Assembly: GCA_963930775.1 (NCBI GenBank)
Contig: OZ005705.1
Coordinates: 2,976,001-3,040,000, forward strand
Length of the DNA stretch: 64,000 nt
Direction: 5' to 3'
From: Cliona cf. orientalis
Taxonomy: Eukaryota > Porifera > Demospongiae > Clionaida > Clionaidae
The notes under the pieces were generated by a model. It searched no databases, was not told where the DNA came from, and was given only the letters and a program-made list of their open reading frames with translations. The stretch's first letter is position 1. Each line of letters starts with the position of its first letter. This document shows positions 43,365 to 62,888 of the stretch, in pieces. The translations under genes were made by a program, and so were the position numbers.

Positions 43365-44108
43365 TTAAGGTACCATTAAATTGCGTGGGCGTGAGGTGGG
43401 GGATATGACACCTAAACCACATCAAAGTCATTAGTGAGGTGCATGTTGTGTAACCACGCCCTTTTAATTGCACAGGTCTCAGGGGTGTGGCTGCTAGAGC
43501 CGGAAGTGTTCGTTTAATATCCTCCATGGACCGGAAGCCGAGCCGGAAGGGAGGGGCCAGGCCACGCCCAAAACAGCCCCACCCTGTTCCCCAAGGACCA
43601 CCATTCTCAATCAAGTGCCTACTAACCACCGGATGTCCACCGGAAGCCCACAATCAATCCCAATTAAAACACACAGCTTCCTCAAGGCCAAAACACACAC
43701 AAACACTCGGAGGCCGTTCTGCCACACCGCCCACGCAAGAGCTCACCTCATTTCCTGTGTGGGCGGAGTAACAACACGTCATCGCAACCACATCCGCTTC
43801 AAACCATCGTCAGCTTCCGTCCAGCCGTACAGGCCCCTCGATCGCACCGCCGTACAGTGCCTCATTAACAGACATGGCCTCACCTTTGACCTCCTGCCAC
43901 GCCCCCAAAGCCTCCTCGCGGGGTTCAAAGGTCACCACCGCTTCCGGGACACGCCCACCTATCGCCGAGGCCAAGTCCCAGGCGCCGATGTCCAAGCACT
44001 GGCCCGTGAAGCCACGCCCAATCGGAAGCAATAAAACCTGCATTAACGCACACGCACACACTCCACACAGTGCCAGGAACACGCCCACACGCTTAATTAG
44101 GCCTAATA

Positions 44109-44142
<34 letters not shown>

Positions 44143-44389
44143 TCGTTGCGGTTAATAGTTAAGAAAGAATGCTTTGATCTTGCTTTGATGTGGGCAATTA
44201 CCGGCCTTTTCTTCAGGGGCCACTTCCGGTCGCTAATTACACGCGCATAATCATCCCTGGCCGATTCTGGACACGCCCACCTTCGACCAAAAGCACTCGT
44301 ATGGCCTCTTCGGCCACGCCCCTTCACGATTCGCTAATTGAATTAGCCATTCCTGACGCTCACGCCCACGCAATTAAATGGTACCTTAA
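43365..44389. mobile_element. TTAA element, copy 1
   Basis: Body 43369-44385 (1017 bp) begins GGTACCATTAAATTGCGTGG and ends with the inverted sequence, flanked by TTAA (43365-43368, 44386-44389). It has a T-run at about 44113-44138. Overlapping frames on both strands recur in all copies but show no protein-like composition. Non-autonomous. Confidence 0.92.
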
Positions 44390-44429
44390 GCTTTTTACTG
44401 TGCCATATACTGTGTACAGTAGATAAGTT
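44390..44429. other. 40-bp spacer between TTAA copies 1 and 2
   Basis: Unique sequence (GCTTTTTACTGTGCC...) that belongs neither to the element nor, by reading frame, to the surrounding LINE. Confidence 0.7.
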
Positions 44430-45173
44430 TTAAGGTACCATTAAATTGCGTGGGCGTGAGGTGGGGGATATGACACCTAAACCACATCAAAGTCATTAGT
44501 GAGGTGCATGTTGTGTAACCACGCCCTTTTAATTGCACAGGTCTCAGGGGTGTGGCTGCTAGAGCCGGAAGTGTTCGTTTAATATCCTCCATGGACCGGA
44601 AGCCGAGCCGGAAGGGAGGGGCCAGGCCACGCCCAAAACAGCCCCACCCTGTTCCCCAAGGACCACCATTCTCAATCAAGTGCCTACTAACCACCGGATG
44701 TCCACCGGAAGCCCACAATCAATCCCAATTAAAACACACAGCTTCCTCAAGGCCAAAACACACACAAACACTCGGAGGCCGTTCTGCCACACCGCCCACG
44801 CAAGAGCTCACCTCATTTCCTGTGTGGGCGGAGTAACAACACGTCATCGCAACCACATCCGCTTCAAACCATCGTCAGCTTCCGTCCAGCCGTACAGGCC
44901 CCTCGATCGCACCGCCGTACAGTGCCTCATTAACAGACATGGCCTCACCTTTGACCTCCTGCCACGCCCCCAAAGCCTCCTCGCGGGGTTCAAAGGTCAC
45001 CACCGCTTCCGGGACACGCCCACCTATCGCCGAGGCCAAGTCCCAGGCGCCGATGTCCAAGCACTGGCCCGTGAAGCCACGCCCAATCGGAAGCAATAAA
45101 ACCTGCATTAACGCACACGCACACACTCCACACAGTGCCAGGAACACGCCCACACGCTTAATTAGGCCTAATA

Positions 45174-45208
<35 letters not shown>

Positions 45209-45455
45209 TCGTTGCGGTTAATAGTTAAGAAAGAATGCTTTGATCTTGCTTTGATGTGGGCAATTACCGGCCTTTTCTTCAGGGGCCACTTCCGGTCGCT
45301 AATTACACGCGCATAATCATCCCTGGCCGATTCTGGACACGCCCACCTTCGACCAAAAGCACTCGTATGGCCTCTTCGGCCACGCCCCTTCACGATTCGC
45401 TAATTGAATTAGCCATTCCTGACGCTCACGCCCACGCAATTAAATGGTACCTTAA
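44430..45455. mobile_element. TTAA element, copy 2
   Basis: Body 44434-45451 (1018 bp), practically identical to copy 1 apart from the length of the T-run. TTAA lies at 44430-44433 and 45452-45455. Same orientation as copy 1. Confidence 0.92.
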
Positions 45456-45575: not shown

Positions 45576-46390
45576 AGCATGAGGGCATGGATACGCGTCT
45601 TGGAAGCGCCCGGTTGCTATGAACGCGCGACGCGGGTGGAGAGAAAGTCTGCACTACAAGGCTCAGGATTGGTCAGAACTATAGGCCTGTGTGCACAAAG
45701 AAGAGTGGCCTTAATGCCTCGGGCCATAGCTACAGCTAGAGACGCATATTTTGTCGATCGAACGATCGGCGCGAAAGCGCCGCGCGTTTCGAGCGGCCGG
45801 CCTGCTAAGCAGGCGCTGGCGCTAGCCACAGAGTAGTCTCGCAAGCCACACCCTTCAATCTCCGCACGCGAGAAAGAGGGTCTGGTAACTTCGCGTACAT
45901 GGAGTTATACACGCTCCAAGATCTTGGAGCGACCAATCAGATTGCAGCTTTTCAGCGCTACCGGTACCATAGCCCAATAACCGCGCATTGATAGGCAAGC
46001 GCGCGCCGCGCAATCTAAACTTAACGTGACGTCACGTAAAACGGTCCATTATTGCATTCCAGCAGCACAACTCTATGTACGCGAAGTTACCAGACCCTCT
46101 TTCTCTCGGAGATTGAAGGGTGTGGCTTGCGAGACTAGCCACAGAGCCTCGAGCGAAGCGAGAGGCATGGTGTGGTCTTTGTCATACCTGTCAGTAGTCC
46201 GGTAACAACGTTCGTGCAGAGCGAGAACGTCGCCATTGCACACTTAGTTGGAGGGGTGTGGCCTCTGCAACGCTTCCATCTGCGCATGCGCACGGTACTA
46301 ATGGCTATGTTTGTGAGCAGGTATATACTGTTATTAAATACATGATCAGCCACATTATCCCATGATTGTGACATTAAACATACTTGTAAA
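45576..46390 (+). repeat. Repeat B (ATGAGGGCATGGATACGCG), copy a
   Basis: Shared with 55738-57100 and 61345-63300: GGGCATGGATACGCGTCTTG, GTGCACAAAGAAGAG, GCTAAGCAGGCGCTGGCGCT, CCTGTCAGTAGTCCGGTA and CATTATCCCATGATTGTGAC. From the TTAA at 45711 rightwards it is also the outer part of the large palindrome. Non-coding. Confidence 0.75.
45834..46137. mobile_element. 304-bp TAGTCTCG fold-back MITE in left palindrome arm
   Basis: TAGTCTCGCAAGCCACACCC at the left with inverted arms of over 70 bp. Exact 9-bp duplication GCCACAGAG at 45825-45833 and 46138-46146. The opposite arm (about 49560-49575) and the copy at 56853 read straight through the site. Confidence 0.93.
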
Positions 46391-48378
46391 CAGAGTAAAA
46401 GGATATATCGAGCAGGCAAATCATTCGTCTGCACATTACTAGATGCTCCACAATTTTCAAAAGAAATTAATAATCCTGTTAATTTTGTTGAAATAATAAT
46501 CCAATAGTTCCATTACACTTAATAGTAGTACTCGAATTTGAATTTACAGATCTGAATGCGAACTTAGTTCGAGGCATTTTCAAATGTAAATGTAGTTTAT
46601 TGCATAATAATATTATATGAATCCCATCAGACACGTGGATAGTAGCTCATCATTAAATGCTGTGAGACTAGCAGTTAGCTATTAATTGGACATCGGCATC
46701 AGGAAGCACATAAATGACCCTTTGTTGGGTAGCCGTGAATATGGCTAATTAGACTGAAGAACTTTAACACTTGATAATGTACCATTAATTTATTTTTCTA
46801 ATACCGCAGGTCGGGTTTTGAATGCGTAGTTAAACGATTGCGAATGGTGCTATATAAGCCAGATTGCGATTCTAATGATTGCGACTTGCCAAACGGGAGA
46901 AACGGATGTTGGTAGGTCGACAGCGATCAATTGTGACACGGCGATCGTCAGTCTTGCTTGCAAACTGCTTGGAGGTTTCGCCAGAAACACCAGTGTGAGA
47001 CAGCGCTGAGCCAGATATCGGAGCAACGCTGCTGGTTGGAGAAGATAAGCGCTATCCGAAAAATCATTTCCTTCACTCCAAGCTCTAAGATCGACGATCG
47101 CTATTTCCGTTCATTGGTGTCCGTATAGCGGGACAATGTGAAAGTTTGAACGTACGATCTATACGCCAACCACGGCCACACGCGGTCGCTAGCGTGCGAT
47201 TCTGGCGTCTCGTAAAACTCGCTAGCGGAACCGCGAAGAGCAATACCGTAGGTCGGGTTTTGAATGCGATATTCTTTTGATTACGAATAATTGCGAGTTT
47301 TACGAGACGCAATCAAAAGAATCGCACGAAAAAGAAAACGCAATGAATATTACACATGCCAGATTAGTCTGACTCCGTGGTTAGCCTTGCGTTCCGCTAG
47401 CGACCGCGTGTGGCCATGGTAGGCGTATAGATCGTACGTTCAAACTTTCACATTGTCCCGCTATACGGACACTAATGAACGGTAATAGCGATCGTCGATC
47501 GCGGGACAATGTGAAAGTTTGAACGTACGATCTATACGCCTACCACGGCCACACGCGGTCGCTAGCGGAACGCAAGGCTAACCACGGAGTCAGACTAATC
47601 TGGCATGTGTAATATTCATTGCGTTTTCTTTTTCGTGCGATTCTTTTCGTAAAACTCGCAATTATTCGTAATCAAAAGAATATCGCATTCAAAACCCGAC
47701 CTACGGTATTGCTCTTCGCGGTTCCGCGCTAGCGAGTTTTACGAGACGCCAGAATCGCACGCTAGCGACCGCGTGTGGCCGTGGTTGGCGTATAGATCGT
47801 ACGTTCAAACTTTCACATTGTCCCGCTATACGGACACCAATGAACGGAAATAGCGATCGTCGATCTTAGAGCTTGGAGTGAAGGAAATGATTTTTCGGAT
47901 AGCGCTTATCTTCTCCAACCAGCAGCGTTGTTCCGATATCTGGCTCAGCGCTGTCTCACACTGGTGTGTCTGGCGAAACCTCCAAGCAGTTTGCAAGCAA
48001 GACTGACGATCGCCGTGTCACAATTGATCGCTGTCAACCTACCTTTCTCCCGTTTGGCAAGTCGCAATCATTAGAATCGCAATCTGGCTTATATAGCACC
48101 ATTCGCAATCGTTTAACTACGCATTCAAAACCCGACCTGCGGTATTAGAAAAATTAATGGTACATTATCAAGTGTTAAAGTTCTTCAGTCTAATTAGCCA
48201 TATTCACGGCTACCCAACAAAGGGTCATTTATGTGCTTCCTGATGCCGATGTCCAATTAATAGCTAACTGCTAGTCTCACAGCATTTAATGATGAGCTAC
48301 TATCCACGTGTCTGATGGGATTCATATAATATTATTATGCAATAAACTACATTTACATTTGAAAATGCCTCGAACTAA

Positions 48379-48643
48379 GGCCAAGCAAAATTGATTATTA
48401 GTTTCTCATCCTATGTTCAGGAATTTCCCCAGGCGGGAGGGTGGCTTTTTATTTTATTTTTTGTCATGAATATCATTAAATGTCATCATGAATTTCATTA
48501 AAAAAATGGGCGAGTCTATGACGTAATGCCTCCGTGCATTTTTATGATAGTTTTAATGATATTCATGAATTAAAATATGGTCAGGCAGAGGAAAAACTAG
48601 AGGCGGGCGGGGATGAGAAACTAATATTCAATTTTATTTGGCC
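48379..48643. mobile_element. 265-bp Harbinger-like MITE in right palindrome arm
   Basis: The ends GGCCAAGCAAAATTGATTAT and inverted ATTCAATTTTATTTGGCC are flanked by TAA (48376-48378, 48644-48646). The opposite arm has the single TAA empty site (reverse complement near 46565). A 3-bp TWA duplication is typical of PIF/Harbinger elements. Confidence 0.85.
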
Positions 48644-48806
48644 TAAGTTCGCATTCAGATCTGTAAATTCAAATTCGAGTACTACTATTAAGTGTAATGG
48701 AACTATTGGATTCTTATTTCAACAAAATTAACAGGATTATTAATTTCTTTTGAAAATTGTGGAGCATCTAGTAATGTGCAGACGAATGATTTGCCTGCTC
48801 GATATA

Positions 48807-49312
48807 CCGTATGGCCGGAAATTTTCGAGGGATCCAATTTTCGCGGAAGGCCCATCTTCAAAGATTTCGCGATCTAATTTTCGCGGATGGAAGTTCCAGG
48901 GTTGCTCCACCCACAATATCCGTCCGGCTCCACCTAGTATAATTATTATACCTCTTACTGCGCGCGCGCCGCGGCTCAAATCTCGTTGGAACCGGCCGGA
49001 AAAAATAGCAAGAGATCAATCGATTGTACTTGTACTTAGCAGATATCGAGAAATGGTACGAGAGTAGCATATGATCGAGGCTAGAGACACTTATGCAGAA
49101 GAAGCTCAACAATAATGAACTGATGTGAAGTAAACCAGCTGTTAGATCAATCCAGCTGAGCAGCGGCATGCACCACGATGGCCACGCCCCCCGTTATCGC
49201 GCGTGCGCGCGTGCGTTTAGGCTTTTTATTTCGCGGATTTAATTTTCGTGGATCGCCAGTCAACCGCGAAAATCGCGAAAATTGGCTCCCTCGAAAATTT
49301 CCGGCCATACGG
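48807..49312. mobile_element. 506-bp TA-flanked CCGTATGGCCGG MITE in right palindrome arm
   Basis: CCGTATGGCCGGAAATTTTC and the inverted end at 49293-49312, flanked by TA (48805-48806, 49313-49314). The opposite arm shows the uninterrupted site near 46402 (GGATATATCG). Confidence 0.9.
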
Positions 49313-49691
49313 TATCCTTTTAATCTGTTTACAAGTATGTTTAATGTCACAATCATGGGATAATGAGGCTGATCATGTATTTAATAACAGTATATACCTG
49401 TTCACAAACATAGCCCATTAATACCGTGCGCATGCGCAGATGGAAGCGTTGCAGAGGCCACACCCCTCCAACTAAGTGTGCAATGGCGACGTTCTCGCTC
49501 TGCACGAACGTTGTTACCGGACTACAGGTATGACAAAGACCACACCATGCCTCTCGCTTCGCTCGAGGCTCTGTGGCTAGCGCCAGCGCCTGCTTAGCAG
49601 GCCGGCCTCTCGAAACGTGCGGCGCTTTCGCGCCGATCGTTCGATCGACAAAATATGCGTCTCTAGCTATAGCTATGGCCCGAGGCATTAA

Positions 49692-49780: not shown

Positions 49781-51496
49781 CCATCAACTTCGGCATTGGC
49801 CACTTCGATAGTGACTAGTTCAGATGTAGTAATATCTGATGTGGTGATTCTAGCTACGTCAGAGGTTCCAGTGTCGACAGCACTCAGCACAGCTGCAGCT
49901 GGTGGATTATCAACCGCTGGACCTCGAAAACAGCTGAAACTAAAAGTGGACAACTCAGGTGTTGGGTTGGTGAACGTGAAAGAACCATCAACTAGTGAGG
50001 TAAGGCACCCGACATTGTGATACACACACACTCAACAGTAGTGCAAGTTAATCTTAGCCTCATCCCCAGGCTATCCTGGGGGAAGGGAAAGGAGAGCCTG
50101 GTATTTAATAACTACATGTACATGTGTGAACAACAAAATAGCTGGATAAAATATTTTAATGTTTGCACGATCTAAAACCTCCTGGACACACACCATCACT
50201 AGCTCCAATGGCCCATGGACAGGACATTTTGGTGCATGAGCATGTGGTGGTTACCAGTTTCCCTGCCCAAGAGACAAGGCTCAAGTTATTAACCCAGCCT
50301 TTGCATGTTTATGCCTGCCAGGAGAGGCTGTGTGGTTGTCAGAATCTCTTAATTACATTGAGAGCTCTAATTGCATGCTCAGCTGGCCACTGCTGCACAG
50401 CTGTGTAAACTATGACTGCACCCTTAACCTCATAAAGGTACTTAGTAAACATGGACCCTTTGAGCTTATGCTTCCTCATTTGGTGTTGCAGTTGTGTATC
50501 ATGATTAGTATTTGTATTCTCCAGGAAAGTAATCCTGACATGGATCAAGAGGAAATAAAAAGAGAAGCGATCATTTTCAAGAAAGAGCCACTTTCGACTT
50601 ATTCTCTTCGAGTAAATGAAGCAGCACAAGAGATTTGTTTATGCAAACCCAGCTTATTACGGAATAGGGGGAAGCTGCTTGAACTTTCCAAAGAGCGAGT
50701 TCATAATGATGGATATGTATACCGGAAAGGAAAGTCTAGATCCAAATCTTATGGTAGTGGCATAGAGGAGGAAACTCACACCAAGCGTCCAAAGACGAAT
50801 GTTCAAGAACGCACCAGCCGTATGAAGATGATCAAAGAAGAACTTTCTGATTTGAAGGATCGTGTATCATTTAAGCGTAAAAGGCTAGATGCAGCAGAAT
50901 TGTCCAAGAACTACAAGCTATGTGATCAGCTGAGTGAAAAAGTGGCAGAGCTGAACAAGAGCAAACGGTTACTTGAATTAGAAATGGGTATATTACGTGA
51001 GAAAGAAAGCAGATCACAACGTTATTATAAACGTAAAACTAAAAGGGAAAGCGACAGTGACAGTAGTTCTTCCACTTCCAGTGCACTATCAGTACGTAAC
51101 AAGAGCCCGTTATTCAGACCTCCCATGATGAGTCCTCCAGTGAAAGGTGTTACTCCTCGATTAATAAGTCCTCCTCCTATCACTGTAAGTGCTCCAAGCA
51201 CATCAAGCCGAGCTCATACACTTGAGTCCACTTTTTTGTCTGAACCAATGGAACTACAGCAGCCTGCCAGATCGCAAGTGACTCAGGAGTGCATCGATCT
51301 CACACTCACTGAGCAAGCTCAGCAAGGTTTCTTGCATGAGTGCAAAGTTGTATCCAGTGAGCACCATGACCCCTTGCTTGAGGAAATTGAGACCCCCTTC
51401 ACTCAGCATAGTGTCTCGAGCGGTGATGACCAGACTCGACAAGAGCATGTACATGAGACTGAGTCATCAATCGATGAAGATAATCAATCTTTTTGA
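49781..51496 (+). CDS. ORF A of two-ORF transposon-like gene: coiled-coil, SIM-bearing protein
   Basis: Exons 49781-49999 (no ATG; begins at an acceptor) and 50525-51496 (TGA), joined in phase 0. The first in-frame ATG is at 50540 in exon 2, so either an upstream exon supplies the start or translation begins there. The first exon is Ser/Thr/Val rich. Exon 2 holds a basic stretch (THTKRPKTNVQERTSRMKM) and a long charged helix (EELSDLKDRVSFKRKRL through LELEMGILREKE) with a UvrB/UVR-like look. An Arg/Ser-Asp tract is followed by Pro-rich SPPP segments and ECIDLTLTE, a typical SUMO-interaction motif. I do not recognise the protein. The stop lies next to a T-run and hairpin that could allow continuation into ORF B. 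Confidence 0.72.
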
Positions 51497-51533
51497 TCTG
51501 GCCTCCCTGTAAACAAAGTTATACAGGGAGGCC
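51490..51533 (+). promoter_or_regulatory. Candidate -1 frameshift signal (T-run, stop, hairpin)
   Basis: TTTTTGA (51490-51496) carries the ORF A stop. The Phe codon TTT at 51491-51493 can re-pair one base back on 51490-51492. Three bases after the stop begins a 12-bp perfect stem GGCCTCCCTGTA (51500-51511) with its complement at 51522-51533 and a 10-nt loop. A -1 shift enters the ORF B frame, which is open across the hairpin. The geometry resembles programmed frameshift signals; not proven. Confidence 0.45.
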
Positions 51534-51546
51534 TATTGCTGAACTG

Positions 51547-54500
51547 ATGCACATATTCACCGCACACCTTAAGAATAGTCCAAGTAACTACGAATACATT
51601 TCCGAAACCGTTTCCGTTAGTAAGCTAAATAATATGTCCCTTGAAGAATATATATATGTTTCTACCGAATACTGTCGAAATAGGCATGCTGGTTCTTGTA
51701 AGCGATGCTTGCCATTGATATCTGCCGCAAAAGTCGTTCAAGAACGAGGAATTTGTCCTCTCTCCCATGTGTACCGGCAAGTGTTCCCTACAGCTAAATA
51801 TAACACCTCAGCTGCAAGACGAAGACTGTTGCAACTCCCCCTAGCTGCTATTAGGTGTGGCAGTCTGGAGAGTGGTACATCTCAAATATTTCTAATGGAG
51901 ATCCTGCCAGAGTGCAGCCACCTTTATCAAAAGGTTATTGATTTCTATCATGAGACTTTGCAACAAGCATCTGTGACTGCTTGCCCCTGTATGACGAAAG
52001 ATCAACTCAGACAGTTACTTACTCTCGCACAAAATGATAGAGAGCGTGAATGTATCAAGTATGCTGTATACAAATCTTCTGGACTGACACCCTCAGCAGC
52101 TCGAAGATTATATGGATTTGAAGAGATGTCTCGAAGAGAGGATGTGGTTGAAAAGGCTATTGAGGATGCAGAAGATATCCGTGAAAGTATTGACATGCTA
52201 GTAAAAGCTAAGGACAAAGCTATTTTGCTTTCGCATGGTATTACGCCAGGTTCAAGCAGTAGTAGTTCTGAAGACGACGCATCCGATGAACACAGCAGTG
52301 ATGTCTCTTTGGACAGTTTCGTTGCACCTGAGGAGACCCCGACTTTAGTGGCTATTGACTACTCTACCCTTCCACTCAGGGACATTGTCGAAAAGAGTAA
52401 ATCTAATATGTTTCAGGTGGTTGAGGAGATAGAAGCTCATTTGCAGAGATCGCTTACAAGCGAAGAGCTGGACAATCTGTTAGAGAAGACCTTATCTTTC
52501 CAAGAATATGATTCCTACCTAATCCACCAGTCTTACCGAGCACTGCTGGCTAGTGGTGCACAGTCAGTGTCAGATGATCAGAGTGCTGATTTGGTGAATG
52601 GGCTCATTATCACTGATTCTGAGAGTGAAGATCCAGAAATGTGGTCCCAAGCTAAGTCCCTAGAAGAAGAAAAGAAAAAACTAGTTGAAAAGCAAAGAGC
52701 AATTATGAGACGCAAGTTACGCAGACAGCGTGCCAAACGTATCGCCTCTGCGAGGTTTTTGTCGAGAAAAATTTCAAAAAAAATGCGTGGTATTGTGAAA
52801 AAATTCCCTAATATCGGGAAGGATATTGAAAATTTTGTGACTGAACGTAATGTCGGTGCTGACTATTGGAGGAGGACAGGGGTATTGACCTTCGATGGTA
52901 ATCGTCACGTCAAGGAGAAAGTTACTTACAACAGAATAAGAGAGCATCTGCAGCAGCTATATGGCCAACACTTTTCGTACGGTACTGTGGTACAGTTATG
53001 TGTTGCCAGGAACAAAAGGAGAAAAAGTGCAAGCAACTATCGTGGTCTCGCAAAAGTTACAACGAGAAGGGCTCGCAAAGGATTCACGCTAAAATTCAAC
53101 CCTGACAATCATTGGTCAGGTGCCTTTTATCGTGGCTTGAATTGGCTGCAGTATACCGATGGTCGTGACATTTTGAACATTAACCGTGATGATGCGGCTG
53201 GTTATCGTTTGGACACCCTTGCCACACATGGCAAACATGCAACACCTGTTGTTACAGCAAGAGAAACATTAACAACACGAACAGACTATGTGAACAAATA
53301 TGCCAGCACTTTGCAGACCACTTCTTACAATTTCACTGCTAGTGGTACTACTAGTGAAATGTGTGCAGGACTAGTAAAGCCATCCAAAATATTTCCTAAG
53401 AACCCAGCTCAACATGCTGCGGACTTGAAGATGCTCACTAAAACACCAGAATTTCAACAAGTATTTCAAAATGATCTCACTGGACTCCCTAAGAGTGTAG
53501 CATGTATTCGTGTTGATGGAGCTGGAGATGAGGGCCCAGGCCATTTAGAGGTCCAGTACTGGTGGACATTACATCATATTGAAACCCCAACACAAGCCAC
53601 ACTTGTGACTTCAAGAAACAGTGGCAGTAGTTACTTAAACCGTGTCGAGTTACAGAATGGCTGTCTGTCATTGGCACATACCAACCTGTTTATTCCCTCC
53701 ACACTTAATGGATCGTGCTATGTTGGTGGTCACATTGATGAACTGAAACTAAAAGAGAATCTCATGTCTGCAGCTGAAGTTTATATCCAGCGATGCAACC
53801 GTGCACCTTGCGGTGATGCCGAAATTCACCTATACATTGGAGCAGACTCCTCAGAATTCCAAGACAAGAGGGAAATGTTGCTAAAATTTCTCAAAGGCTC
53901 TCGCAAGGACAAACAGAAGTTACAAGCGGAACATCCTCATGATTATTCTAATTTTGAGAAGGTGTGGAGTATTAGAGAACGACACATGGTAAAAGATGTA
54001 CCAACTCAGTACATTTTCTTCCTCCTACCTTGTTATCGTCCAGAGTGTGCACACCCCATTTGTGTGAATGGAAGACCATCATCCGAGCCAACCTGGTTTG
54101 AGAATGGCCCTCCATTGTCGTATTTGCCATTTCCAGTTCCTGACACTAGTAAAAGTTGGGGTCTTGAGACATGTGAAAGGTGCACAGGACATTGTGCTGG
54201 TCATTTCTTGCTACCAGAAGACGCATACATCCATCGCTCTCAGAGTGTCTGTGAACCACCATCGCAAAGTTTGCTGAAAGTGCACAAGTCATCAAGAGGA
54301 TGTGTATCTGATGATACGGTTTCTACAATAGCTAAACAATTACTTCTGCAGGTTAGTGACGTCAATTTGTGGCTGCAGCACCTAGACACTGTTCAGCAAA
54401 ACCGCCAGGAGGGGGCTAGAAAGGCAGCAGAGACACGTCAGAAGAAAAAGGATGCAGTGAAGGCTACTGAATGCCGTTGTGGGATCTGCGGATATTTGTA

Positions 54501-54630
54501 TGAGGAGGAAACAGAAGAAGAAGAATTGTGGGTAGCGTGTGACAAATGTCAGGCATGGTATCATGCTCTTTGTGTGCATTTACTACCAGACAGTATCCCA
54601 GATGAGTTTTTTTGTCCTAAATGCTTGTAG
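51547..54630 (+). CDS. ORF B: large transposase-like protein with C-terminal PHD finger
   Basis: Single-exon frame, open from 51493, first ATG at 51547, 1027 residues. In order it has a Cys-rich N-terminal part (CRNRHAGSCKRC, ACPC), acidic Ser tracts (SSSSSEDDASDEHSSD), and a very basic patch (RRKLRRQRAKRIASARFLSRK). A core follows with RVDGAGDEGPGHLEVQYWW, TLVTSRNSGSSYLNRVELQN and LFIPSTLNGSCYVGGH, which I take to be an RNase-H/DDE-type catalytic fold of a multicopy transposon family seen in sponges and cnidarians. A second Cys cluster (CYRPECAHPICV, CERCTGHCAGH) precedes a C4HC3 PHD finger at the end (CGIC, CDKC, WYHALC, FFCPKC). PHD fingers usually read histone tails, so chromatin-guided integration or a domesticated role is possible. 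No terminal repeats were found. Confidence 0.75.
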   Translation: MHIFTAHLKNSPSNYEYISETVSVSKLNNMSLEEYIYVSTEYCRNRHAGSCKRCLPLISAAKVVQERGICPLSHVYRQVFPTAKYNTSAARRRLLQLPLAAIRCGSLESGTSQIFLMEILPECSHLYQKVIDFYHETLQQASVTACPCMTKDQLRQLLTLAQNDRERECIKYAVYKSSGLTPSAARRLYGFEEMSRREDVVEKAIEDAEDIRESIDMLVKAKDKAILLSHGITPGSSSSSSEDDASDEHSSDVSLDSFVAPEETPTLVAIDYSTLPLRDIVEKSKSNMFQVVEEIEAHLQRSLTSEELDNLLEKTLSFQEYDSYLIHQSYRALLASGAQSVSDDQSADLVNGLIITDSESEDPEMWSQAKSLEEEKKKLVEKQRAIMRRKLRRQRAKRIASARFLSRKISKKMRGIVKKFPNIGKDIENFVTERNVGADYWRRTGVLTFDGNRHVKEKVTYNRIREHLQQLYGQHFSYGTVVQLCVARNKRRKSASNYRGLAKVTTRRARKGFTLKFNPDNHWSGAFYRGLNWLQYTDGRDILNINRDDAAGYRLDTLATHGKHATPVVTARETLTTRTDYVNKYASTLQTTSYNFTASGTTSEMCAGLVKPSKIFPKNPAQHAADLKMLTKTPEFQQVFQNDLTGLPKSVACIRVDGAGDEGPGHLEVQYWWTLHHIETPTQATLVTSRNSGSSYLNRVELQNGCLSLAHTNLFIPSTLNGSCYVGGHIDELKLKENLMSAAEVYIQRCNRAPCGDAEIHLYIGADSSEFQDKREMLLKFLKGSRKDKQKLQAEHPHDYSNFEKVWSIRERHMVKDVPTQYIFFLLPCYRPECAHPICVNGRPSSEPTWFENGPPLSYLPFPVPDTSKSWGLETCERCTGHCAGHFLLPEDAYIHRSQSVCEPPSQSLLKVHKSSRGCVSDDTVSTIAKQLLLQVSDVNLWLQHLDTVQQNRQEGARKAAETRQKKKDAVKATECRCGICGYLYEEETEEEELWVACDKCQAWYHALCVHLLPDSIPDEFFCPKCL

Positions 54631-57341: not shown

Positions 57342-58337
57342 TTAAGGTACCATTAAATTGCGTGGGCGTGAGGTGGGGGATATGACACCTAAACCACATC
57401 AAAGTCATTAGTGAGGTGCATGTTGTGTAACCACGCCCTTTTAATTGCACAGGTCTCAGGGGTGTGGCTGCTAGAGCCGGAAGTGTTCATTTAACATCCT
57501 CCATGGACCGGAAGCCGAGCCGGAAGGGAGGGGCCATGCCACGCCCAAAACAGCCCCACCCTGTTCCCCAAGGACCACCATTCTCAATCAAGTGCCTACT
57601 AACCACCGGATGTCCACCGGAAGCCCACAATCAATCCCAATTAAAACACACAGCTTCCTCAAGGCCAAAACACACACGAACACTTGGAGGCCGTTCTGCC
57701 ACACCGTCCACGCAAGAGCTCACCTCATTTCCTGTGTGGGCGGAGTAACAACACGTCATCGCAACCACATCCGCTTCAAACCATCGTCAGCTTCCGTCCA
57801 GCCGTACAGGCCCCTCGATCGCACCGCCGTACAGTGCCTCATTAACAGACATGGCCTCACCTTTGACCTCCTGCCACGCCCCCAAAGCCTCCTGGACGGG
57901 TTCAAAGGTCACCACCGCATCCGGGACACGCCCACCTATCGCCGCAGCCAAGTCCCCGGCCCCGATGTCCAAGCACTGGCCTGTGAAGCCACGCCCAATC
58001 GGAAGCAATAAAACCTGCATTAACGCACACGCACACACTCCCAGGAACTCGCCCACATGCTTAATTAGGCCTAATTAGCTTTTTTTTTTGTCGTTGCGGT
58101 TAATAGTTAAGCAAGAATGCTTTGATCTTGCTTTGATGTGGGCAATTACCGGCCTTTTCTTCAGGGGCCACTTCCGGTTGCTAATTACACGCGCATAATC
58201 ATCCCTGGCCGATTCTGGACACGCCCACCTTCGACCAAAAGCACTCGTATGGCCTCTTCGGCCACGCCCCTTCACGATTCGCTAATTGAATTAGCCATTC
58301 CTGACGCTCACGCCCACGCAATTAAATTGTACCTTAA
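57342..58337. mobile_element. TTAA element, copy 3
   Basis: Body 57346-58333 (988 bp), TTAA on both sides. It has several substitutions and a short T-run (58081-58089), and one change in the right terminal repeat (AATTGTACC instead of AATGGTACC). Confidence 0.9.
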
Positions 58338-59172: not shown

Positions 59173-60186
59173 TTAAGGTACCATTAAATTGCGTGGGCGT
59201 GAGGTGGGGGATATGACACCTAAACCACATCAAAGTCATTAGTGAGGTGCATGTTGTGTAACCACGCCCTTTTAATTGCACAGGTCTCAGGGGTGTGGCT
59301 GCTAGAGCCGGAAGTGTTCATTTAATATCCTCCATGGACCGGAAGCCGAGCCGGAAGGGAGGGGCCAGACCACGCCCAAAACAGCCCCACCCTGTTCCCC
59401 AAGGACCACCATTCTCAATCAAGTGCCTACTAACCACCGGATGTCCACCGGAAGCCCACAATCAATCCCAATTAAAACACACAGCTTCCTCAAGGCCAAA
59501 ACACACACAAACACTTGGAGGCCGTTCTGCCACACCGCCCACACAAGAGCTCACCTCATTTCCTGTGTGGGCGGAGTAACAACACGTCATCGCAACCACA
59601 TCCGCTTCAAACCATCGTCAGCTTCCGTCCAGCCTTACGGTCCCCTCCATCGCACCGGCGTACAGTGCCTCATTAACAGACATGGCCTCACCTTTGACCT
59701 CCTGCCACGCCCCCAAATCCTCCTCGCGGGGTTCAAAGGTCACCACCGCTTCCCGGACACGCCCACCTATCGCCCAGGCCAAGTCCCAGGCGCCGATATC
59801 CAAGCACTGGCCCGTGAAGCCACGCCCAATCGGAAGCAATAAAACCTGCATTAACGCACACGCACACACTCCACACAGTGCCAGGAACACGCCCACATGC
59901 TTAATTAGGCCTAGTAAGGCTTTTTTTTTTTTTTTTTTGTCGTTGCGGTTAATAGTTAAGCAAGAATGCTTTGATCTCGCTTTGATGTGGGCAATTACCG
60001 GCCTTTTCTTCAGGGGCCACTTCCGGTCGCTAATTACACGCGCATAATCATCCCTGGCCGATTCTGGACACGCCCACCTTCGACCAAAAGCACTCGTATG
60101 GCCTCTTCGGCCACGCCCCTTCACGATTCGCTAATTGAATTAGCCATTCCTGACGCTCACGCCCACGCAATTAAATGGTACCTTAA
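59173..60186. mobile_element. TTAA element, copy 4
   Basis: Body 59177-60182 (1006 bp), TTAA at 59173-59176 and 60183-60186. Same ends and orientation as the others; T-run at about 59921-59938. Confidence 0.92.
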
Positions 60187-60586: not shown

Positions 60587-61285
60587 ACGAAAATTGCCAG
60601 ATCTCGAGTTCTAGGTGTCTGTGCGTGTTGTAAGCACAACCAATCGGTAGATATCGGTGAAAAACTGGTTTGTGGCTAGCCACTACTCCACTTACATATC
60701 CAGGCTAAGTGGGAACAATACCGTAGCCACCCTCTTCCTAGTGATTACAGACTTCCAAATTTCACCAGTTTTTCTGCGGAACCTCTCCCAGTGAGATATC
60801 GATGTTCAAGTATTAGAAAGTAGCTCTCCGCGAGCTCTAGCCAACCATAGATTATATAATATATAATCTATGATCCAACGGCGCTTGTAACGCGATCGTA
60901 GGCAAAACCGTTACGAAGCCACGCCCACCTAAATTTTCTCCATAGAAATGAAGCTAGTGGCGATTCCGCGGGACCGATTTGCAAGGTTAAGGCCTCAGTA
61001 GATAGCTTTTCCATTGAGCTATCTACTGCAATTTGTTTCATGAGAGTACTCCTGGCCAGAGCCGAGATATTCACGATCTACTGCAGGCCCTTGGAGGTCT
61101 ATAATCGCTACTCTTCCTTCTTTCCTATGCTAAGCTGCTCAGAATCATCATCACAGTTCTGTCCTCCACACAGTTTATCCAGACGGTTATCTCAAGAGGG
61201 TCTGGCTCTATGATGACAATATGGACTATACCCAAGGAAAGTACATACCCTTATTTATAGCTGCTCCTTTTTTCTTGTTATTATA
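60498..61285. other. Repeat-derived sequence with trinucleotide microsatellite
   Basis: A GTT/GTC/GGC trinucleotide run (about 60541-60587) next to a GCGCATGCGC motif, then a stretch with a small inverted pair (GTAGATAGCTTTTCC at about 60999 and AGCTATCTACTG at about 61017). Arg- or Cys-rich frames here are microsatellite artefacts. Confidence 0.5.
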
Positions 61286-61453: not shown

Positions 61454-62888
61454 TTAAGGTACCATTAAATTGCGTGGGCGTGAGGTGGGGGATATGACAC
61501 CTAAACCACATCAAAGTCATTAGTGAGGTGCATGTTGTGTAACCACGCCCTTTTAATTGCACAGGTCTCAGGGGTGTGGCTGCTAGAGCCGGAAGTGTTC
61601 ATTTAATATCCTCCATGGACCGGAAGCCGAGCCGGAAGGGAGGGGCCAGGCCACGCCCAAAACAGCCCCACCCTGTTCCCCAAGGACCACCATTCTCAAT
61701 CAAGTGCCTACTAACCACCGGATGTCCACCGGAAGCCCACAATCAATCCCAATTAAAACACACAGCTTCCTCAAGGCCAAAACACACACAAACACTTGGA
61801 GGCCGTTCTGCCACACCGCCCACGCAAGAGCTCACCTCATTTCCTGTGTGGGCGGAGTAACAACACGTCATCGCAACCACATCCGCTTCAAACCATCGTC
61901 AGCTTCCGTCCAGCCGTACGGTCCCCTCGATCGCACCAGCGTACAGTGCCTCATTAACTGACATGGCCTCACCTTTGACCTCCTGCCACGCCCCCAAAGC
62001 CTCCTCGCGGGGTTCAAAGGTCACCACCGCTTCCGGGACACGCCCACCTATCGCCGAGGCCAAGTCCCAGGCGCCGATGTCCAAGCACTGGCCCGTGAAG
62101 CCACGCCCAATCGGAAGCAATAAAACCTGCATTAACGCACACGCACACAGTCCACACAGTGCCAGGAACACGCCCACATGCTTAATTAGGCCTAATAAGC
62201 TTTTTTTTTTTTTTTTTTTTTCAAGGCGACCAGAACACTAAGCAGAAAAAAAAATTGTCCAAAAACCAAGCTGGGTGCATAGCTGGGTACATAGTGGAAC
62301 CATACAATGCAAGCAGGCAGCCTAAATTTCAATTTTGTCAAAAAGTTGGTAAAGGTCGTCACGTTTATGTGCGCGCGTGGCCCCGCCCCTCACGTAGCGC
62401 GTGGGCGGAAACATTGCAAACGCATGGCTTCCCTGTACAAACATATGGGGAAACTTCAAAGGGCCGTAACTTTGATTCTAAGGCGTGAATCAAAATTCCT
62501 GAAGGTCAAATCTCTGCATTCGATCCATTCTGCGCGCCGGTGCAAAAATTATGTCCCCAAGTGCTCCCAGTTCCCCCCTGAATTAATTAATTAAAAATAT
62601 TTTTTTTTTTTCTACTTAGTGTTTAATTAGTGTTTAATAAGTCGTTGCGGTTAATAGTTAAGAAAGAATGCTTTGATCTTGCTTTGATGTGGGCAATTAC
62701 CGGCCTTTTCTTCAAGGGCCACTTCCGGTCGCTAATTACACGCGCATAATCATCCCTGGCCGATTCTGGACACGCCCACCTTCGACCAAAAGCACTCGTA
62801 TGGCCTCTTCGGCCACGCCCCTTCACGATTCGCTAATTGAATTAGCCATTCCTGACGCTCACGCCCACGCAATTAAATGGTACCTTAA
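61454..62888. mobile_element. TTAA element, copy 5, with nested insertion
   Basis: Body 61458-62884 with standard ends and TTAA duplications at 61454-61457 and 62885-62888. About 415 bp of extra sequence starts at the internal T-run (62222) and ends near 62634. Confidence 0.92.
62234..62623. mobile_element. MITE nested in TTAA copy 5
   Basis: AACACTAAGCAGAAAAAAAA at the left and inverted TTTTTTTTTTCTACTTAGTG (about 62602-62621) at the right bound about 390 bp of non-coding sequence absent from the other four TTAA copies. The exact target duplication is blurred by the T-run. Confidence 0.7.

Follow-up and report, generated by a model that had tools for sequence, protein, structure and literature searches.

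A young, high-copy family of non-autonomous TTAA-bounded elements with Kolobok-like ends in the genome of the sponge Cliona cf. orientalis

The window analysed here is a stretch of 64,000 nucleotides from Cliona cf. orientalis (G000:C17:2976001-3040000), and the genome searched comprised 217 Mb in 149 contigs. The locus at window positions 61454-62888 raises the question of what kind of element it contains and which enzyme moves it. A sequence-only reading had taken it to be one of five copies of a TTAA-specific element, and the coordinates were borne out: a TTAA (61454-61457) is followed by an element of 1427 bp on the forward strand (copy 5, 61458-62884) and by a second TTAA (62885-62888). 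The 27-bp terminal inverted repeat of copy 5, GGTACCATTAAATTGCGTGGGCGTGAG, lies at 61458-61484 on the forward strand and, as the right end, at 62858-62884 on the reverse strand. The remaining copies, all on the forward strand, are copy 1 (1017 bp, 43369-44385), copy 2 (1018 bp, 44434-45451), copy 3 (988 bp, 57346-58333) and copy 4 (1006 bp, 59177-60182), with a TTAA-bounded spacer of 48 bp between copies 1 and 2 (44386-44433). As had been claimed, all five (988-1427 bp) share their ends, starting with the 27-bp sequence and finishing with its inverted form, and all five are flanked by TTAA on both sides.

When up to three mismatches were allowed, the first 17 bases of the end occurred 10 times in the window, relative to 0.08 occurrences expected from shuffling. 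The left ends carry this 17-base end exactly in five of five copies; the right ends differ from it by a single base (T instead of A at base 10) in four copies and by two bases in copy 3. The inverted repeats match at 26 of 27 bases, or 25 in copy 3, and the copies are 96.9-100% identical to each other where aligned. The ~1-kb copies contain a T run near position 757-775, and it is there that internal units of ~400 bp are found in longer copies. Copy 5 has one such unit at its central T run (62222-62640, forward strand), absent from copies 1-4. Elsewhere in the genome the longer copies have one to six units in tandem: one each in loci L006, L017 and L019, two in L013 and L024, about three in L016 and six in L014, with ~71-95% likeness to the unit of copy 5. 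Element length is therefore ~1.0 kb, and up to ~3 kb where the internal repeats are expanded.

The left end of the element seems conserved. In a comparison of 18 ~1-kb copies, two of the 109 variable sites lay in the first 100 bases. Because the search itself selected for bases 1-17, this impression rests on the small number of variable sites in the unselected bases 18-100. Such conservation is as expected for a putative binding region.

The family is abundant, and its association with TTAA is not peculiar to the window. The search of the whole genome for the repeat end, which the sequence-only reading had proposed, gave 1,290 exact occurrences of the 17-base end (635 + 655), of which 1,251 (612 + 639; 97.0%) were directly preceded by TTAA, and the reversed control patterns gave none. 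The figure of 1,290 is not a copy count, because this 17-base form, although it is that of the left end and most of its occurrences are left ends, is also carried by some right ends: of 70 collected ends, 45 had A at base 10, whereas 37-38 of the 70 are left ends. These 70 ends were drawn from the window, L001, L006, L007 and L009-L028 and were selected by having at most three mismatches to the 17-mer, and within this selected set the first two bases were GG in all 70. Base 24 was T in 70 of 70 ends, and a genome pattern with any other base at 24 together with G at 27 gave no matches; this fixed T may reflect constraint, the youth of the family or an effect of the tool.

TTAA was present on both sides in 28 of the 31 complete copies read (from the window, L001, L007, L009-L028, L061 and L064), among which degenerate copies are under-represented because the copies were located by way of the exact end. 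The three exceptions were in L001 (TCAA on the right), L017 (CTAA on the left) and L028 (a fused end). A duplication of TA with ends reading AGGTACC was considered as an alternative to TTAA and gives the same letters; TTAA was favoured because the outermost T is present in 97% of the ends.

To find unoccupied targets, 80 + 80 bases of flank were joined across one TTAA and matched against the sequences read, and empty counterparts with a single TTAA were found for three independent targets. For copy 5, it had been claimed that the flanks join across one TTAA exactly as in a paralogue at 45705-45730. The empty site is real (forward strand, by flank alignment; GTGGCC-TTAA-TGCCTCGGGCC, with the one TTAA at 45711-45714), so that the TTAA on either side of copy 5 reads as a target duplication, but the agreement is not exact: TGCTTCGGGCC and TGCCTCGGGCC differ by one base, and the joined flanks of copy 5 were 90.8% identical to this site over 142 bases. 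The target of a copy at L009:1379-2380 has one single-TTAA counterpart in the window (60978-61070, forward strand, by flank alignment) and another in L023 (2695-2785). The third target is within the family itself, where the copy at L013:1010 is nested at a TTAA inside a ~400-bp unit of another copy, and the empty counterpart is in L024. Two other candidates were set aside, namely L032, where the paralogue of the copy 5 target has lost nine bases including the TTAA, and L015:6024, in which the match (69%) was too poor for use.

The empty site of copy 5 adjoins a further structure in the window, a nested palindrome of ~4 kb (45711-49691) with arms of up to 317 bases that are mostly 97-100% complementary. 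Both of its outer ends start at TTAATGCCTCGGGCC, and the target of copy 5 is the same TTAA in a paralogue. Beyond it, at 50240-54627, are two overlapping frames (418 and 1,048 codons), the second with a PHD finger at its C terminus; parts of these frames may resemble Sola-like transposases. The gene content also includes ankyrin/ion-channel proteins, which points to an animal genome.

The copies are similar to each other and appear to lack coding capacity. Mean identity was 98.06% over the 153 pairs formed by the 18 ~1-kb copies, a hand-picked subset of the ~1-kb copies among the 31 complete ones. A Pfam scan of two frames, from copies 2 and 4, gave no match, and the variable sites of the longest frame in the 18 copies were spread over codon positions 1, 2 and 3 as 20, 20 and 27, with 28 gap positions summed over copies. 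From the Pfam result and this even variation, the element very probably encodes no protein. The family is young, high-copy and non-autonomous.

Three superfamilies known to use TTAA are piggyBac, Kolobok and Sola3, and the TTAA duplication found here is a character shared by Kolobok and piggyBac. According to a published account, Kolobok elements make TTAA duplications and, unlike piggyBac, have ends of the form 5'-RR and YY-3' (PMC9587614). The GG...CC termini of the present family obey this 5'-RR...YY-3' rule together with the TTAA duplication, and Kolobok is thus the natural assignment. The class is already known, as this is a non-autonomous TTAA element with Kolobok-like ends. On the strength of termini and target, which are an indirect guide to class, we consider it likely that this is a MITE-like, non-autonomous cut-and-paste family mobilised by a Kolobok-superfamily transposase supplied in trans; the moving enzyme is, in other words, probably of Kolobok type. 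Such a transposase would bind the 27-bp ends, and perhaps also the conserved left ~100 bp, would excise the element and would then join it to a TTAA at a new place. The sequence-only reading had named Kolobok beside piggyBac without drawing on the RR/YY ends and had left the mobiliser unclear; we prefer Kolobok, even though no transposase with these ends was found in the loci read.

Kolobok-related sequences are present in the genome. The profile of the KolX domain (P2RX7_C) gave 25 rows of matches, PF20700 gave 55, and a Kolobok transposase query taken from L061, which itself matches PF20700 at 4e-8, gave 89, often as several exons per locus. Among these PF20700 and Kolobok loci is a family with open frames of ~1,150 codons (C2:7837468, C2:8930589, C11:5986658 and C1:29598080). 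Ends could be inferred for two lineages. In that at C17:3182400-3188700, the best TTAA-anchored pair was AGGGAGGGTGCCATCA/AGAAAGGGTGACATGG, with AG on both sides and 11 of 16 bases matching, at one locus. In the other, beside KolX matches on contigs C2 and C8, the end was AGGTGCTCTGAAACGG (one end, in two copies); the two copies align over 494 bp at 99.8% identity, the homology beginning precisely at TTAA-AGGTGC, which suggests that a Kolobok has recently been mobile in this genome. In neither of the two lineages compared do the inferred ends match GGTACCATTWAATTGCG. The Kol0 lineage, reached by way of the KolX/P2RX7_C profile, was also tried as a partner. In L061, a family copy lies ~0.9 kb from a KolX match and 1.6 kb from transposase matches, but the copy is independent and complete, with TTAA on both sides, and this candidate was rejected.

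A longer relative with the same ends that encodes a transposase, which the sequence-only reading had proposed to look for, did not emerge: neither the loci read nor the pattern searches yielded an element that combines TTAA-flanked GGTACCATTWAATTGCGTGGG termini with a transposase gene. Candidates for autonomous elements were the long copies of L013-L017, L019, L020, L024, L026 and L027, but these contain ~400-bp units or unrelated sequence and were rejected. Six of seven frames of at least 110 codons from long copies and from gaps between copies were scanned with Pfam and contained no transposase; a frame between two copies in L015 had a weak match to a collagen C-terminal domain (E 0.002). 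L064, chosen for its odd subterminal sequence, was found to be an ordinary copy with a short deletion. Patterns for divergent ends, assessed on the letters displayed for the matches, gave 4 rows with Y at base 32, all like ordinary copies; 29 rows (control 5) with Y at base 27, comprising changed copies, unrelated sequence and one end of a second family described below; and 1 row with YY at bases 33-34, a search of lower power since both bases were required. A partner would escape these searches if it had the tested base in common with the family, or if it matched the family at fewer than nine bases following the TTAA.

Comparison with described systems places the family close to known Kolobok-type elements. 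As in the Xenopus T2-MITE and Xmix elements, the target is TTAA, the inverted ends begin with two purines, copy number is high and copies are young (PMC6004289). Xmix, a Kolobok-type MITE of Xenopus, has an amplified internal segment, and amplification in tandem, described there for Xmix/Xstir, is paralleled here by the ~400-bp unit (PMC6004289). The difference lies in the ends, which are AGGRR in the Xenopus T2-MITE as given there and GGTACC in the present family, with ~1 kb of length and a 27-bp inverted repeat (PMC6004289). The solo LTDRs and multimers of KolobokP are similar in that TIR-ended units with Kolobok-type ends occur singly and in direct pairs (PMC9587614). KolobokP is there described as being without strong target specificity, whereas 97% of the ends of the present family are at TTAA (PMC9587614). 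A KolobokP element would have direct long terminal repeats around an internal region with a transposase and a His-Me nuclease. In the loci read, which include the 31 complete copies, no coding internal region was seen between direct copies, and what separates copies 1 and 2 is a ~44-bp repeat unrelated to such a region. Three end strings of 13-17 bases were found in no paper of the literature searched, which covered few subscription journals and not Repbase, and this is not proof of an undescribed family. This young family inserts at a strict target, has left empty sites that can be read and numbers about a thousand TTAA insertions or more, which suits it to the study of TTAA integration outside piggyBac. 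Should the partner enzyme be found and prove active, it would add to TTAA-specific insertion a second system whose ends are different.

The element could instead be moved by a Sola3-type transposase or by an undescribed TTAA-specific one, which we regard as unlikely. Sola3 duplicates TTAA, the ends inferred for the Kolobok lineages and those of the piggyBac loci read differ from the family ends, and none of the four queries matched within 6 kb of the ends of a second family, described below, that begins with the same 21 bases. Set against this are the RR/YY ends, which already fit Kolobok, and the span of the Kolobok end comparison, in which two lineages represent a minority of the Kolobok/PF20700 loci of the genome.

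The second family (family 2) was exposed by the pattern TTAAGGTACCATT with A at base 27, which gave 61 rows relative to 6 for the control; six of the seven rows displayed are or resemble TTAAGGTACCATTTAATTGCGTGGGTGGATA. Its end, also written GGTACCATTTAATTGCGTGGG, shares the first 21 bases with the 1-kb family and then diverges. A 30-base family-2 pattern, TTAAGGTACCATTWAATTGCGTGGGTGGAT, had 35 matches genome-wide, 31 of which were on contig C1 between 19.76 and 37.37 Mb, ~8% of the genome; C1:20329638 and C1:34153763 are examples of family-2 ends there. Judged by the common end, family 2 may be a sibling or the autonomous partner of the 1-kb family. Its surroundings were evaluated using 40 ends, the 31 exact ends on C1 plus nine C1 rows of the base-27 search (most of the nine known by position alone), and lists of places on C1 beyond 18 Mb: 96 places for piggyBac (102 of the 122 rows are there, and six second pieces of loci were omitted) and about one place per locus for PF20700, the Kolobok transposase and P2RX7_C. 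Up to 6 kb inward of the 40 ends there were no listed matches to any of the four, where chance would give 1.07 for PF13843, 0.29 for PF20700, 0.17 for the Kolobok transposase and 0.14 for P2RX7_C. Up to 12 kb inward there were three piggyBac matches against 2.21 expected and one PF20700 match against 0.58 expected, the latter 6.6 kb inward of C1:34153763. This test points to no partner and rejects none, given that a large element, a match outside the lists or another type of transposase may be involved. It is quite unlikely, in our assessment, that both families depend on a TTAA-specific transposase outside piggyBac and the described Kolobok lineages, with family 2, concentrated in one 18-Mb half of the chromosome-sized C1, marking that enzyme's own element.

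The region of C1 at ~18-37.5 Mb, on the longest contig seen, holds 102 of 122 piggyBac rows as well as 31 of 35 exact family-2 ends, and it resembles either a chromosome arm rich in transposons or a set of repeat-rich pieces joined in assembly. The 1-kb family is also frequent outside this region: the first 11.5 Mb of C1 contain 100 of its listed ends, and the window itself is on C17.

That the genome's own piggyBac transposase accepts GG ends and moves the element is very unlikely. piggyBac makes TTAA duplications, and the family resembles piggyBac and its MITEs in its TTAA target and in the single TTAA of its empty sites; moreover, piggyBac is abundant here, with at least 122 PF13843 rows (116 of 414 candidates scored), many without an internal stop. 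The ends argue the other way. As a general rule piggyBac ends start with CC, whereas the present element begins with GG. Twelve of the 30 piggyBac loci read gave a recognisable TTAA-bounded pair of ends, and all 12 start with C (11 pairs have CC at either end, and that of L037 has CC at one and CT at the other), reading CCCTTT, CCCCTT, CTCTTT or CCGATT. None resembles GGTACC, as the sequence-only reading had anticipated. Seventeen loci had no recognisable end pair, and the pair in L041 starts with TA and is probably unrelated. Furthermore, within 6 kb inward of the 40 family-2 ends there was no listed PF13843 match, and the three within 12 kb compare with 2.2 by chance. Family copies do occur close to piggyBac elements, one sharing a TTAA with such an element (L044) and one having its end near another (L031), and in none of the 30 loci did a GGTACC end belong to a piggyBac element.

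The last alternative, that the copies multiplied without transposition, through segmental or tandem duplications that carried the TTAA along, is extremely improbable and, as the only mode, is refuted by the unlike near flanks of the window copies, the single-TTAA empty sites at three unrelated targets, the nesting of one copy in another at TTAA (L013) and the 1,251 ends preceded by TTAA. Within the nearest 150 bases, the window flanks match each other only through the spacer of copies 1 and 2 and one 24-base piece, which lies more than 120 bases from copy 2 and belongs to the dispersed repeat that surrounds copy 5. When the flanks are extended to 400 bases, pieces of one dispersed repeat are common to those of copies 2, 3 and 5. 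The 48-bp spacer is an independent repeat with a TTAA in each ~44-bp unit, a unit that is partial and without an adjoining copy in L002 and is in tandem in L011 and L013. The sequence-only reading had named copies without TTAA, or spread by duplication only, as grounds against itself, and neither proved to be the rule.

Duplication does account for pairs. Copies 1 and 2 had no mismatches over 1,017 aligned bases and are a local duplicate, and a pair in L011 had one mismatch in 1,016 (99.9% alike, relative to the pair mean of 98.06%). The neighbouring end pairs C2:6023984/6025039 and C16:6494957/6496020, 1,055 and 1,063 bases apart, each share a rare variant that recurs at a few other places in the listed matches. 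For such near-identical neighbours, local duplication is a better explanation than transposition. In addition, the copy at L012:1708 occupies the same TTAA of a paralogous repeat as copy 5, which may mean two separate insertions or a single one that was duplicated along with the repeat around it.

Neighbouring copies are in some cases fused, which we likewise take as local duplication. At L028:1180-1240, two are joined head to tail through the palindromic GGTACC, one GGTACC being common to both, and at L014:7375-7430 the joint is slightly shortened. The L014 arrangement was considered as a self-insertion and was read instead as a fusion of neighbours, because no piece of the second copy precedes the first. 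In L010 (1500-3030), the 48-bp spacer has a full copy on one side and on the other a 353-base piece that reads as the left part of the element, inverted; beyond them, the outer flanks form an inverted repeat of ~60 bases. Finally, pattern matches pointed to minimal elements with little beyond both ends between TTAA sites, at G000:C6:7075748-7075785 (~30 bases) and G000:C1:15179214-15179244 (~24 bases).
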